From: Paludibacteraceae bacterium
Lineage (GTDB): Bacteria > Bacteroidota > Bacteroidia > Bacteroidales > Paludibacteraceae
NCBI GenBank assembly: GCA_031292565.1
Contig: JARLGW010000012.1
Coordinates: 186,001-250,000 of the forward strand
DNA length: 64,000 bases
Direction of reading: 5' to 3'
Positions 18,856 through 39,432 of this stretch are shown here, piece by piece; position 1 is the stretch's first letter; each line of letters opens with the position of its first letter. The notes under the pieces were generated by a model that did no database searches, was not told where the DNA came from, and saw nothing but the letters and a program-made list of their open reading frames with translations. Made by a program: the position numbers and the translations under genes.

Positions 18856-19416
18856 ATGAAGCTATACATCAAAAATATGGTTTGTGACCGATGCAAAATG
18901 GTTGTGCAATCGGAATTTGACAAATTAGGCATTCAGCTTCATTCGGTTGAACTGGGAGAGGTGGATACTGTTTCCGAAGTAGATTCCATTCAAAAGGAGC
19001 AGCTTTCGGATGGATTAAGTGCGGTTGGTTTTGAATTGATTGATGACAAACGTGCACGAGTGGTAAATAAAATTAAGTCGCTCATTATTGAATCTATTTA
19101 TAACACCGACGGGTTGCTAAAGGTAAACCTGTCGGCCTACCTCTCTGATATATTGCATCAGGATTACTCCACCCTAAGCAAACTTTTTTCGGAGATAGAA
19201 AATACCACTATCGAGAAATACTACATATCGCAAAAAGTGGAACGGGTAAAAGAATTACTTACCTACGACGAACTAACTTTGAGCGAAATAGCCCTAAAAC
19301 TAGATTACAGCAGCACCGCTTATTTGAGTAAACAATTTAAGGACGTAATGGGCATTACCCCAAGTGAGTACAAGAAATTGCAACTCAAAGGCCGCAAAAC
19401 GTTGGATTCGCTATAA
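18856..19416 (+). CDS. AraC-type HTH regulator with N-terminal HMA-like metal-binding segment
   Basis: MKLYIKNMVCDRCKMVV (MxCxxC), C-terminal LTLSEIALKLDYSSTAYLSKQFKDVMGITPSEYKK. Confidence 0.85.
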   Translation: MKLYIKNMVCDRCKMVVQSEFDKLGIQLHSVELGEVDTVSEVDSIQKEQLSDGLSAVGFELIDDKRARVVNKIKSLIIESIYNTDGLLKVNLSAYLSDILHQDYSTLSKLFSEIENTTIEKYYISQKVERVKELLTYDELTLSEIALKLDYSSTAYLSKQFKDVMGITPSEYKKLQLKGRKTLDSL

Positions 19417-19446
19417 TCTTATAAAATTCACCCAAAATTTCGTAAC

Positions 19447-19463
19447 ATTTTCCACTGGAAAAT
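19447..19463. promoter_or_regulatory. 17-bp palindromic candidate operator ATTTTCCA-C-TGGAAAAT
   Basis: Perfect palindrome directly upstream of AACTTTG -7-like box of the permease gene; same core as 39418-39430. Confidence 0.65.
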
Positions 19464-19507
19464 AAAGAACTTTGTAGAGTATTATTTACTTAAAAATAAA
19501 ACTCAAG

Positions 19508-20746
19508 ATGATGAATTATATTTTGCCATTTATCAGTCTGCTGAACGAAATGTCGCCCTATCTTCTGTTTGGCTTTTTAATTGCCGGGGTACTCAAGGTA
19601 TTTGTGCCCAAGGAAAAATACATCAATCATATAGCCAAACCCAATTTTCGTTCCGTTATGTGGTCGGCATTGGCCGGGGTGCCGCTACCGTTGTGTTCGT
19701 GTGGCGTAATTCCCACCGCCATGTCTTTGCGCAAAGAGGGAGCTAGTAAAGGTGCCACCGTGGCATTTCTTATTTCCACTCCGCAAACGGGGGTTGATAG
19801 CATTGCCGCCACTTATTCGCTGTTGGGATTGCCATTTGCGTTGCTTCGTCCTATCATCGCTTTTGTTACGGGTATTCTGGGTGGAGTGGCCACTAATAAA
19901 CTGGACAAAACGACTTCGTCCGATGTGCTACCCACGGAAGACGACGAGGCGGATTATAAAGAAAAAAACAAGTTGTTGCGAGTGCTGCACTACGGTTTCG
20001 TGGAAATGATACAAGATATAGGCAAGTGGCTGATAATAGGTATTATTGCCGCCGGGCTGATAGCCATTTTTATCCCCGACAGCTTTTTTGCCGCGTATCT
20101 TCACAACCCGTTGCTCAATATGTTTATCGTGTTGGCTATCTCGGTGCCCATGTATATATGTGCCACGGGGTCTATCCCCCTGGCTGCCGTGCTGATGATG
20201 AAAGGTTTATCGCCCGGAGCTGCCTTGGTGCTTTTGATGGCCGGGCCTGCTACTAACGTGGCCACCATTACCGTGGTGGGCAAAGTGCTGGGCCGGAAAA
20301 CATTGGCTATTTATTTAGGGAGCATCGTGTTGGGTTCGATGGCTTTTGGCCTGATGATAGATTACCTGTTTCCCGCTTCATGGTTCAGCATGGGGCTGAT
20401 GAATCACGACATGATGCACGCTCATCATCACGATGGCTTTTCGCTTGTAAAAGAGGTATCATCTATTTTATTGGTGGGGTTGATTATTAACGCGTTTTTA
20501 CAAAAATATTTGTATTCTTTACGGCTTAAAAAATTAGCAACTATGGCACAAGTGTATAAAATTGGTGGCATGACCTGCAATCATTGCAAAGCCACTGTGG
20601 AAAAAAATTTGGCAAAGGTAAACGGAGTAACTTCCGTACAAGTGGATTTGGAAAAAGCCTTGGCTTACGTAGAGGGGACCCCATCGGACACCGATGTGCA
20701 AAAACTGGTGGATGAATTGGGCTACGAGTATAAAGGAAAGGAATAA
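19508..20746 (+). CDS. SO_0444-type Cu/Zn efflux permease with C-terminal HMA domain
   Basis: PLCSCGVIPTAMSLRKEGASKGATVAFLISTPQTGVDS permease motif; HAHHHDGF His-rich loop; C-terminal GGMTCNHCKATVEKNL. Confidence 0.88.
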   Translation: MMNYILPFISLLNEMSPYLLFGFLIAGVLKVFVPKEKYINHIAKPNFRSVMWSALAGVPLPLCSCGVIPTAMSLRKEGASKGATVAFLISTPQTGVDSIAATYSLLGLPFALLRPIIAFVTGILGGVATNKLDKTTSSDVLPTEDDEADYKEKNKLLRVLHYGFVEMIQDIGKWLIIGIIAAGLIAIFIPDSFFAAYLHNPLLNMFIVLAISVPMYICATGSIPLAAVLMMKGLSPGAALVLLMAGPATNVATITVVGKVLGRKTLAIYLGSIVLGSMAFGLMIDYLFPASWFSMGLMNHDMMHAHHHDGFSLVKEVSSILLVGLIINAFLQKYLYSLRLKKLATMAQVYKIGGMTCNHCKATVEKNLAKVNGVTSVQVDLEKALAYVEGTPSDTDVQKLVDELGYEYKGKE

Positions 20747-35741: not shown

Positions 35742-36377
35742 ATGTCAGTATTAGTTGGAAAAAAAGCACCTGTATTTCATGCAAATGCAGTAGTAAATGG
35801 AGGTGAAATTGTAGAAAATTTTTCATTAAGTGATTATGTAGGGAAAAAGAATGTAGTATTTTTCTTTTATCCTGCCGATTTTACTTTTGTTTGTCCTACC
35901 GAAATCATTGCTTTTCAGGATAAGCTTGCCGAATTTGAAAAGCGCGATACGGTAGTGGTAGGTGCATCTGTCGATTCTCAATTTTCTCATTGGAAATGGT
36001 TGCAGACTGAGAAAAAAGAGGGTGGTATTAAAGGAGTGAATTTCCCTTTGGTAGCCGATAGTGCATTTACTATTTCAAAAAATTATGATGTCTTAGCCGG
36101 CGATTTTGATTATAACGAAGAAGGAGAGCTCGTTTTCAACGGAACGCCTCAAGCCTACAGGGGGCTGTTCCTTATTGACAAAGCCGGGGTGGTAAGACAT
36201 CAGGTGGTTAACGATATGCCGTTGGGTCGTAGCGTGGACGAAGCGTTGCGTATTATTGACGCATTAGCGTTTTTTGAAGAAAACGGTGAAGTGTGCCCTG
36301 CCAATTGGCATAAAGGCGACAAAGGACTAAAAGCTACCCAGGAGGGTATTGCTTCTTATTTAGCAGCGAAAGAGTAG
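35742..36377 (+). CDS. 2-Cys peroxiredoxin (AhpC family)
   Basis: FFFYPADFTFVCPTEIIAF, resolving EVCPANW. Confidence 0.94.
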   Translation: MSVLVGKKAPVFHANAVVNGGEIVENFSLSDYVGKKNVVFFFYPADFTFVCPTEIIAFQDKLAEFEKRDTVVVGASVDSQFSHWKWLQTEKKEGGIKGVNFPLVADSAFTISKNYDVLAGDFDYNEEGELVFNGTPQAYRGLFLIDKAGVVRHQVVNDMPLGRSVDEALRIIDALAFFEENGEVCPANWHKGDKGLKATQEGIASYLAAKE

Positions 36378-36590
36378 ATTGGGGCAAAACGAAAGTTTTG
36401 CATAAAAAAAAAGGGTATCGAAATCAATTTTCTTACCCTCTTTTCTTTTGTATGCTTTGCTGGATTGATGCACTTTCGTGGTGGCTCTAAATCCGGTTGA
36501 ATTTTGCAGCGACAATTCCCTGTCCGCTTTTTTCACGGCTTTGATGTAATCTTCCGTGGTGATTCGGTTCATTTGTTTTTTCTTTTTCAT
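36360..36590 (-). CDS. Small basic hypothetical protein (~76 aa)
   Basis: MKKKKQMNRITTEDYIKAVKKADRELSLQ...; shorter start chosen; resembles small conserved Bacteroidales proteins; slightly overlaps the peroxiredoxin stop. Confidence 0.5.
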   Translation of the reverse strand: MKKKKQMNRITTEDYIKAVKKADRELSLQNSTGFRATTKVHQSSKAYKRKEGKKIDFDTLFFYAKLSFCPNLLFRC

Positions 36591-36685: not shown

Positions 36686-36871
36686 TTATTTGCTTAAATA
36701 CATAGCTTGCATGCCACAGTAACGGATGCACTTTCCGCAATCAATACATTTTGATTCGTCAATAATGGGTAGTCCCACCCCGGTTTGTGATATGGCCCCG
36801 GTAGGGCAAACTCTTAATAATGGGCATTTGTGGTTTTGCGGACACGCGTGCTTGTCAATATTTATCGCCAT
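36686..36871 (-). CDS. Small 4Fe-4S ferredoxin-type protein
   Basis: CPQNHKCPLLRVCPTGAI and CIDCGKCIRYCGMQA. Confidence 0.88.
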   Translation of the reverse strand: MAINIDKHACPQNHKCPLLRVCPTGAISQTGVGLPIIDESKCIDCGKCIRYCGMQAMYLSK

Positions 36872-36876
36872 ACGTT

Positions 36877-37689
36877 TTATTTTTTTGCAATAATTAAAAA
36901 TTGTGGAAATTCTTTTTCTCCCTTGCGGGTTTCTTTTTTTATCCGGTTAAAGGTTTCACACAGAACAAATTGAAATCCGGTTTTGCTCAACAGTTCGCAT
37001 AAGTCATGCTCGTCGAATCCGTTGTGAGGAACCTCCTCGTCGTGAAAGCTACCGTCCTCTTTTACCAGGTCGGCAATGGCTATATAGCCTCCCGTTGTTA
37101 ATTTAGCATACATCTCGCCCAAAAGCGATGCCGTGTCCTCAATATGATGGAATGTCATCGACGAAACAATTACATCCACGGCACTGGTCTGCATATCCCC
37201 GATGCCCGGAGAAACAAATTCTATCGCTTCTGAATTTAATTCCAGGTCAGCAACTTTTTTCTTTAATACCTCAAGCATGGACGGAGAGTTGTCAACCATC
37301 ACTAACGATTTCACGTAAGGAGCAAATTGCAACCCTACCAACCCCGTGCCACAACCGAAATCCATCAACCTCGTTTCCGGTAGGATTGGTATGGTTTCCA
37401 TCACGCGGCGCACAAAGCTTTCGGCCATTGCCACCCGTCGGGCATTTTGATCCCACCCTGAGGCTTTATCTTCAAATTTATCCGTGGTGTCGATAGCCGG
37501 GTACCCCATTTCTTTCAATTTTGCGTTTACCCGGTTCAAATCCACTTCCGGTGTATGATCCATCACCAGCTGTTTAGCTGCAATATTTGCTTCGATGCCA
37601 TACACCCCGTTAATTTTCAGTAAGGTATTATTTATGGTGTTTACGCAATGAGCACATTGCATATTTTCCACGTTCAACGTAGTTTTCAT
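36877..37689 (-). CDS. HMA-domain::SAM-dependent methyltransferase fusion
   Basis: N-terminal MKTTLNVENMQCAHCVNTINNTLLKINGVYGIEANI (HMA MxCxxC), then MDFGCGTGLVGLQF and SSMTFHHIED (class I methyltransferase). Confidence 0.88.
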   Translation of the reverse strand: MKTTLNVENMQCAHCVNTINNTLLKINGVYGIEANIAAKQLVMDHTPEVDLNRVNAKLKEMGYPAIDTTDKFEDKASGWDQNARRVAMAESFVRRVMETIPILPETRLMDFGCGTGLVGLQFAPYVKSLVMVDNSPSMLEVLKKKVADLELNSEAIEFVSPGIGDMQTSAVDVIVSSMTFHHIEDTASLLGEMYAKLTTGGYIAIADLVKEDGSFHDEEVPHNGFDEHDLCELLSKTGFQFVLCETFNRIKKETRKGEKEFPQFLIIAKK

Positions 37690-37693
37690 TTGT

Positions 37694-37996
37694 CTAGGCT
37701 AAACTGTTTATAACCGATTCCATTTCCGCAACGGAACTGATCCCGATTTTTTTCCATATTACTTCTCCATTCTGAAAAATCATAAGGGTAGGCACACTCC
37801 TAATGCCAAGCTGCATGGCAATGCCGCGATTGTCGTCAACATCAATTTTTACAATTTTAGCCTTGTCGCCAATATGAGCTTTCAGGTTTTCTAAAATAGG
37901 CTTCATTGATTTACACGGGCCACACCATTCGGCAAAAAAGTCAATCACTGTTGGCTGCTCACTTGCTATTAGATTTTTAAAGCTTGTTTTTTCCAT
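37694..37996 (-). CDS. Thioredoxin
   Basis: FFAEWCGPCKSMKPIL, IRSVPTLMIF; start at MEKTS. Confidence 0.94.
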   Translation of the reverse strand: MEKTSFKNLIASEQPTVIDFFAEWCGPCKSMKPILENLKAHIGDKAKIVKIDVDDNRGIAMQLGIRSVPTLMIFQNGEVIWKKIGISSVAEMESVINSLA

Positions 37997-38000
37997 GTTA

Positions 38001-38252
38001 TTAATTGATTTCTTCAAAATTGACTAACACGTCTTCATTTTTATCTACACTCGGCTGCTCCCTTGTCGATGTACTACAACCGTTTGTACCACAACATGAT
38101 ACATTAAGCAAGGCAAAAATTATAAACCATGCACTTACAAATAGCAAGATGTATTGGCTTGAATCTACACCGTAAATAGCTATCAAAGAGCCAATAAACA
38201 GGCGAAAATAGCGGCTGAACGACCATCCTCTGAAAAAACTGAATATCTTCAT
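38001..38252 (-). CDS. Small membrane protein, DUF2892/YgaP-TM-like, Cys-containing tail
   Basis: FRLFIGSLIAIYGVDSSQYILLFVSAWFIIFALLNVSCCGTNGCS. Confidence 0.68.
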   Translation of the reverse strand: MKIFSFFRGWSFSRYFRLFIGSLIAIYGVDSSQYILLFVSAWFIIFALLNVSCCGTNGCSTSTREQPSVDKNEDVLVNFEEIN

Positions 38253-38476
38253 TTTTGTTTCGGTTTAACTGAATTAAAGACCAAGAGTCCTAACACTGCA
38301 CCATAAGCAGTACTTATATATGGATTCCCGGTGATGGGGCAGGTGCCTGAGGCACATCCTATAAAGTGCCAGTAGGCATATCCCCCAATTGCCCCTACAA
38401 CTATTCCAATAATAGTGATACGGTGTTTTTTTAAAAAATCCAATATTTTGTTTTTCATGCAGTTCTTAATAAACAA
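38249..38476 (-). CDS. Small membrane protein, DUF6132-like
   Basis: IGIVVGAIGGYAYWHFIGCASGTCPITGNPYISTAYGAVLGLLV; 4-bp ATGA overlap with next gene. Confidence 0.75.
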   Translation of the reverse strand: MFIKNCMKNKILDFLKKHRITIIGIVVGAIGGYAYWHFIGCASGTCPITGNPYISTAYGAVLGLLVFNSVKPKQK

Positions 38477-38479
38477 TGG

Positions 38480-38947
38480 TTATTGAACTTTTAGCACATC
38501 TTTAATAGCTTCCTTAATAGTTGCTTTGGGCAATGCACCCATCGCTATTTGTGGATTTCCACCTACCGGGCAGAAATAAATAGTGGGTATGCTTTGGATT
38601 CCGAAAACAGAGGCCAATTCTTGTTCTGCTTCCGTATCTATTTTATAAACATAAATTTTACCATCATATTCTTCTGCTATTTGTTCCAGGATGGGAGCTA
38701 CTGCTTTACATGGTCCGCACCAGTCGGCATAGAAATCTATGATACAAGGTTTGTCACCCAAATATTTCCACTCAGTTGGGTTCTTCTCAAAGTTCATCAC
38801 TTTTTCGAGAAACATTTGTTTGGTTAGATGAATTGTTTTCATTTTGTTTTGAGTTTTATTATTGTTTTCTTTTTCTTTTTTCTGTTGATGATTACATGCC
38901 GTGAACGCTCCAATAAGTATCAGGCTGTAAAGGATAATTTTCTTCAT
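38480..38947 (-). CDS. Thioredoxin-fold lipoprotein
   Basis: Lipobox LIGAFTAC; DFYADWCGPCKAVAPIL; IQSIPTIYF. Confidence 0.92.
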   Translation of the reverse strand: MKKIILYSLILIGAFTACNHQQKKEKENNNKTQNKMKTIHLTKQMFLEKVMNFEKNPTEWKYLGDKPCIIDFYADWCGPCKAVAPILEQIAEEYDGKIYVYKIDTEAEQELASVFGIQSIPTIYFCPVGGNPQIAMGALPKATIKEAIKDVLKVQ

Positions 38948-38974: not shown

Positions 38975-39355
38975 TCAACGGATGGCCGTGGAGGTTTGTT
39001 CATTCTGGCATTTGAAAATAGGTTGAAGTATTTCCGGGATTTCAATCTGGTTGATTTCAATCTGCTTCAAAAGAGCTGATCCTTTTTCTGTTAACTCAAA
39101 ATTCATATACCGTTTGTCGCTCGATCCGATTGACCGGGCAATGTATTCCATATCTTCCACCGCTTTAATCAGTTTGGATACATGCGAAAACTTCAACCCT
39201 ATTTGTTCTGCTATTTCGCTGGATGAAAGTGTTTTCCCTTTCAGCGAGCAAAGTACCAGCCCTTGGTTAATACATATCCCAAAAGCTTGATCGAATTGCT
39301 CTTCAAAAGCATTGATCGCTTTGTAAATATCCTTTATCAAACATATACATTCCAT
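38975..39355 (-). CDS. MarR-type winged-helix regulator
   Basis: LSSSEIAEQIGLKFSHVSKLIKAVEDMEYIARSIGSSDKRYMNFELTEKG; several Cys residues. Confidence 0.82.
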   Translation of the reverse strand: MECICLIKDIYKAINAFEEQFDQAFGICINQGLVLCSLKGKTLSSSEIAEQIGLKFSHVSKLIKAVEDMEYIARSIGSSDKRYMNFELTEKGSALLKQIEINQIEIPEILQPIFKCQNEQTSTAIR

Positions 39356-39384: not shown

Positions 39385-39432
39385 TGCAAAGATAACACCA
39401 TTTTCCATTAAAAACAATTTCCAATGGAAAAT
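39385..39432 (-). promoter_or_regulatory. Promoter/operator of the MarR-Trx-methyltransferase operon
   Basis: Minus-strand TATCTTTG -7 box (39388-39395 region); palindrome TTTCCA-A-TGGAAA at 39418-39430 plus second half-site ATTTTCCATT at 39400-39409. Confidence 0.6.

Follow-up and report, generated by a model that had tools for sequence, protein, structure and literature searches.

The usual ligands of HMA domains are Cu(I) or Zn/Cd/Hg, rather than As(III). In ArsM, the arsenic is held by conserved cysteines (PMC12607644), and E. coli YgaP consists of a rhodanese and a membrane domain (PMC4730233). In the window (the whole stretch of DNA that was analysed, 64,000 nucleotides from a Paludibacteraceae bacterium), an HMA domain is fused to a class I SAM-dependent methyltransferase in a protein of 270 residues (HMA-MT; 36877..37689, minus strand). 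This agrees with the preliminary description, which had proposed such a fusion: both domains score above their Pfam cut-offs, the three motifs quoted there are present and AlphaFold predicts two folded domains.

The reading frame of HMA-MT is complete, begins with ATG and has exactly the boundaries reported earlier. The HMA part comprises approximately residues 1–65 (37495..37689, minus strand) and carries a CxxC motif (C12xxC15); residues 4–63 match the Pfam family HMA (PF00403) with 47.7 bits against a cut-off of 24.8, which places the domain in this family. The methyltransferase (MT) part comprises approximately residues 70–270 (36880..37482, minus strand) and is assigned by its Pfam matches and conserved residues, with residues 101–241 matching Methyltransf_31, 11, 23, 25 and 12 at 52–55 bits, all above the cut-offs. 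In the AlphaFold model, obtained with an alignment of 72 sequences (mean pLDDT 92.6, pTM 0.79), residues 2–60 form a beta-alpha-beta-beta-alpha unit and residues 71–269 a class I MT fold, and the lower confidence falls mainly on residues 61–80 (pLDDT about 69–80), at the linker and the MT part's first turn. The Rossmann-like fold and the motif I sequence DFGCGTG, as seen when considering the Pfam, AlphaFold and Foldseek results, identify the MT half as a class I SAM-dependent enzyme. The Foldseek matches of HMA-MT include BioC, UbiG, TehB and OvoM, among others (E about 1e-12 to 1e-14); these are general class I MTs, and a functionally specific relative was not found by this search. A sequence-profile search of the PDB also retrieves generic methyltransferases only.

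The preliminary description had made its view depend on conserved HMA cysteines, and C12 and C15 of the metal-binding CxxC motif are indeed invariant in the three fusions and the 20 stand-alone orthologues aligned with them. The MT part corresponds to a small class I SAM methyltransferase; its near-invariant residues, four of them histidines, are D133, S135, H181, H182, D207, G213, F215, H216, H222 and G224. Judged by the predicted secondary structure, H181, H182, H216, H222 and D207 sit in loops following beta-strands, on what is the substrate-binding face of class I enzymes. The only conserved cysteine column of the MT part is that of Cys113 of motif I, present in 45 of the 68 MT-only relatives. 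The junction between the two parts is very short, as shown by the start codons of the MT-only genes, which align a few residues past the end of the HMA domain.

Several described families were considered for the two halves. The earlier remark that this is not an obvious ArsM holds: the MT part scores 25.7 bits against NCBIfam PRK11873 (cut-off 263), and ArsM-type cysteines are not conserved in the 68 MT-only relatives. Since ArsM holds arsenic by conserved cysteines and the MT part is without them, HMA-MT does not belong to this family. The HMA part stays below every NCBIfam cut-off for the copper chaperone CopZ (NF033795, 40.5 bits against 91; NF033794, 34.6 against 95; NF047957, 31.5 against 85). 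For the tellurite methyltransferase TehB (PF03848), the MT part reaches 14.7 bits against a cut-off of 20.4, the likeness being in the fold only, and for the corrinoid-protein-associated methyltransferase CpaM (NF043040) 55.2 bits against 180. The NCBIfam equivalogs of UbiE/COQ5 are also rejected (37.7 bits against 158 and 36.3 against 216); the broad Pfam UbiE/COQ5 model PF01209 is passed, with 26.8 bits against 20.1. The PADLOC match of HMA-MT to mads_2 concerns the generic MT part alone.

HMA-MT is encoded by the sixth gene of a tight run of seven on the minus strand, from 39355 to 36686, with intergenic gaps of at most 27 bp. The first gene encodes a MarR-like regulator (38975..39355; HTH_27, MarR), with conserved cysteines in CxI[KR]-[DN] near the N-terminus and in LC-x-L, both near-invariant in the family alignment. 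It is followed by a TrxP-type thioredoxin lipoprotein (38480..38947), whose closest solved structures are the thioredoxins 2l5l and 3hxs/3hyp, the last two of which we take to be Bacteroides fragilis TrxP. Two small membrane proteins come next, DUF6132 (38249..38458, or from a possible alternative TTG start at 38476), with the motif GCxxGxC, and a YgaP-like protein (38001..38252), with the tail SCCGTxGC and a weak similarity to PF11127 that is below the cut-off and seen in its relatives only. The two cysteines of DUF6132 are conserved in 44 of 44 sequences, and those of the YgaP-like protein in 93 and 98% of 41. A cytoplasmic-type thioredoxin with WCGPC (37694..37996) precedes HMA-MT, and a 61-residue ferredoxin (36686..36871) closes the run, its seven cysteines being invariant in 35 of 35 homologues. 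The operon family to which this run belongs is defined here by DUF6132, YgaP-like and TrxP genes that neighbour HMA or rhodanese genes on one strand, as is the case in the window. A description of the seven-gene operon was not found in the papers searched.

The ferredoxin and its 35 homologues share an unusual first half, CPQNHxCPLxxxCP, and the seven-cysteine ferredoxin recurs next to TrxP, DUF6132 and MarR genes in other Bacteroidales. Directly 3' of it lies a gene for a small basic protein (TxxxYIKAVKKADR), which is kept in the three fusion genomes (window, 36360-36590, minus strand; L112, 6432-6638; L113, 7065-7295), and in the window and L113 this gene is followed by that of AhpC.

Both halves of HMA-MT have separate counterparts. 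Scans with a YgaP-like profile find this gene in 41 of 200 genomes of the family, and in about 25 of these 41 the gene order is DUF6132 – YgaP-like – HMA – TrxP, with a stand-alone HMA protein of approximately 85 residues, whose CxxC motif is kept without exception in the 20 members aligned with the fusions. Against a profile built from these stand-alone operon proteins only, the three fused HMA domains score 45–50 bits (45 for that of the window), and the next HMA domain of the window's genome scores 16; because of this difference, the fused HMA is most likely the orthologue of the operon HMA, rather than a CopZ or CopA domain that was recruited. The family of the MT half consists of stand-alone methyltransferases of approximately 200 residues, found in many phyla (30–43% identity) and without an HMA domain. 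The three fused MTs make up a single clade (100/94) in a tree of 71 sequences, and the MTs grouped with them are from the same family and order, which fits one fusion event. The fusion protein thus looks like a single, genus-restricted join of two units that are separate in relatives.

The identical seven-gene order is present in L112 (genome G342) and L113 (G362), both from species of the window's genus, whose full-length fusion proteins are 55 and 53% identical to HMA-MT; since these two other species carry the same protein in the same operon, an assembly error is excluded. The content of L112 is the same as that of L001, a Paludibacteraceae MAG and the sole full-length match among 72 relatives in the genome_contigs search. 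A common architecture would have refuted the preliminary description, but among the genomes searched the fusion is uncommon, being seen in the window's genus, a small anaerobic group, only: three of the four genomes of the genus, and three of the 200 of the family, carry the full-length fusion, which was found in none of 294 other genomes of the order and 395 other genomes of the phylum. The samples are even draws from larger groups, with one genome per species, so that further fusions may exist. In L086, L090, G107 and others with in-frame partial matches upstream of the MT gene, an unfused HMA gene beside it was not found, and a plasmid search gave generic MTs only. The literature searched has nothing relevant on HMA-methyltransferase fusions or on DUF6132. 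Both kinds of domain are well known; it is sound to conclude that the fusion is a genus-restricted architecture within a conserved operon, neither of which was found described.

Apart from the fusion, the MT and the HMA operon also have links. DUF6132 lies within 4 kb of the MT gene in six of 60 Bacteroidales MT loci (P about 6e-7 with an assumed background of 0.5%, which is our own estimate), and two of the six (L302 and L280) also have a ferredoxin or TrxP. Within the family, 24 of the 28 genomes with the HMA operon have the MT, as against 19 of the 172 without it (Fisher P 1.6e-15); this co-occurrence is partly due to ancestry, because one or two genera account for most such genomes. In L114 and L116, the MT gene is within about 5 kb of the HMA operon. 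A methyltransferase beside HMA and TrxP genes in L223 was rejected as an unfused counterpart and is not used as evidence, as it is a different methyltransferase (15% identity). Across phyla, a strong recurrent neighbour of the MT-only genes was not found. Because this widespread MT-only family is without consistent neighbours, the ancestral MT substrate may be unrelated to metals. By eye, DUF134-like and NifX-like genes can be named beside the MT-only gene in L114 (9033-12155) and L127 (6791-8705), together with a C_GCAxxG_C_C-type protein in L127.

The operon of the window also has a candidate operator. A 13-bp palindrome, TTTCCATTGGAAA (39418..39430, minus strand), lies 62 bp before the start codon of the MarR-like regulator, and the sequence TATCTTTG (39387..39394, minus strand) resembles the Bacteroidota −7 promoter element, TAnnTTTG. 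The palindrome, as TTTCCAWTGGAAA, is conserved 5' of the TrxP/DUF6132 operons that carry MarR, and this in three families of Bacteroidales. With at most one mismatch, TTTCCANTGGAAA is found 5' of the first gene in eight of 12 MarR-bearing operons (the window, L210, L211, L159, L162, L192, L198 and L237), including those in which MarR is the last gene, whereas only two of the approximately 60 operons or gene pairs that lack MarR have it. On this evidence, which is indirect but strong, the palindrome is probably the operator of the MarR-like regulator. In a genome-wide regulon search, the sites apart from that of the operon are mostly inside genes. Elsewhere in the window (18856-20746, plus strand), a small regulator, which combines an HMA-like CDRC motif at its N-terminus with an AraC HTH, precedes an ArsP_1 permease with a C-terminal HMA domain, and the palindrome TTTCCACTGGAAA (19449-19461, plus strand) lies between these two genes. 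In the sister genome G342, TTTCCACTGGAAA is located between polA and dusB (L316, 1501), where the pair with the permease was not seen.

Related operons contain further enzymes. Rhodanese genes occur in five of them (L159, L160, L161, L162 and L165), in L165 together with a CoA-disulfide-reductase-like protein. ArsM-like MTs are encoded in related TrxP/YgaP-like or DUF6132/ferredoxin operons (L171, 5377-6021; L172, 5296-5943; L193, 3-587); they are cysteine-rich, have the motifs CCLSCGG, SNCTxNH and CWAGA, and score 185–193 bits against PRK11873, and the L171 operon also has an ArsR-type regulator. The ArsM-like enzymes, rhodaneses and CoA-disulfide reductase point to soft-element chemistry, and the operon can be understood as a thiol-redox and soft-element module. 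It is plausible, as initially suggested, that the HMA domain serves substrate delivery or a metal-gated activity of the MT. In the light of the operon context (thioredoxins, cysteine-bearing membrane proteins, a seven-cysteine ferredoxin, a two-cysteine MarR-like regulator, and rhodanese or ArsM-like enzymes in related operons), a role with soft metal(loid)s or sulfur is more probable than it was from the sequence by itself.

Our preferred reading, which we hold tentatively, is that HMA-MT works as a metal(loid) or sulfur methyltransferase that is loaded through thiols, its capture site being the separate HMA domain instead of catalytic-domain cysteines. Thiol-reactive stress would cause the MarR-like regulator to release the operon, and the two thioredoxins and the ferredoxin would keep thiols reduced, including those of the HMA CxxC motif. 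The HMA thiolate pair could then capture a soft thiophilic species, either a metal or metalloid ion or a sulfur species from the relay, and present or report it to the attached MT, which would methylate a thiophilic substrate for detoxification or export. In this mechanism, the ligand, the substrate, the direction of transfer and the physiological role are what we infer. Several points count against this reading: the MT-only family is widespread and without consistent neighbours, the MT part has no conserved cysteine apart from that of motif I, and shared ancestry confounds the co-occurrence. In addition, other HMA domains act simply in regulation or docking, and both the fusion and the YgaP-like gene are missing from G314, the fourth genome of the genus.

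It is possible, if rather unlikely, that the HMA domain is such a regulatory or docking unit, whose metal binding or redox state at the CxxC motif switches or localises an ordinary MT with a small, non-metallic substrate. This would be in agreement with the many MT-only relatives, which across phyla have neither an HMA domain nor recurrent neighbours, and with the predicted structure of two well-formed domains and a lower-confidence linker; however, this operon family has both HMA and MT genes also in other genera than that of the fusion, and a common pathway, not regulation alone, is thereby suggested. An unlikely explanation is that loss of a stop codon joined two neighbours that continue to work independently, the HMA domain serving the thioredoxin and membrane relay and the MT its own reaction. 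The very short junction, with the MT part starting where MT-only proteins have their start codons, would be expected in that case, as would the restriction to one genus with MT-only and HMA-only forms in relatives, but three species keep both domains intact at 53–55% identity, whereas decay or splitting would be expected of a neutral fusion. An arsenite methyltransferase in which the HMA thiols replace the ArsM cysteines for binding arsenic appears very improbable. The ArsM-like enzymes of related operons, one with ArsR, and an SBF-family protein (an Acr3-type candidate), which the three fusion genomes all have and the fourth lacks, would fit an arsenite substrate; against this stand the low PRK11873 score of the MT part, its lack of ArsM cysteines and the metal preference of HMA domains given above, and a sister species has, in addition to the fusion, a separate ArsM-family gene above the cut-off beside the SBF protein.

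The findings tie together an apparently undescribed Bacteroidota gene set (TrxP, DUF6132, YgaP-like, HMA or rhodanese, and seven-cysteine ferredoxin), which gains a testable regulator and a candidate operator. As the fusion joins an uncharacterised operon metallochaperone and a widespread uncharacterised MT family, a result on this one protein would inform both. If the HMA domain does load the substrate, the protein would represent a novel design for a metal(loid) methyltransferase. The full proposal is that of a new kind of methyltransferase for metal(loid)s or sulfur, whose soft substrate is loaded for methylation with SAM by a detachable HMA metallochaperone domain, and which is part of a Bacteroidota thiol-redox operon that is under MarR control and undescribed; this is quite unlikely to hold in its entirety.

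When compared with described systems, the fused HMA domain has the fold and the CxxC motif in common with the PF00403 metallochaperones CopZ, MerP and Atx1; it differs in being fused to an enzyme and in being nearest to the uncharacterised, operon-specific HMA. The MT half shares with ArsM the class I SAM-dependent fold, and ArsM-like genes occur in related TrxP/YgaP-like operons; it is a member of the uncharacterised small class I MTs (Methyltransf_11/25/31) with the pattern MTxHHIxD ... GxFHxxxxxxHxGF. The thioredoxin lipoprotein of the operon matches Bacteroides TrxP (PDB entries: 3hxs and 3hyp) with E about 1e-47, but TrxP corresponds to a single component of the operon. With E. coli YgaP, the likeness is a weak match of the small membrane protein's relatives to PF11127, below the Pfam cut-off, and in some related operons a rhodanese gene adjoins the YgaP-like gene, whereas the operon of the window is without a rhodanese and has HMA-MT instead.
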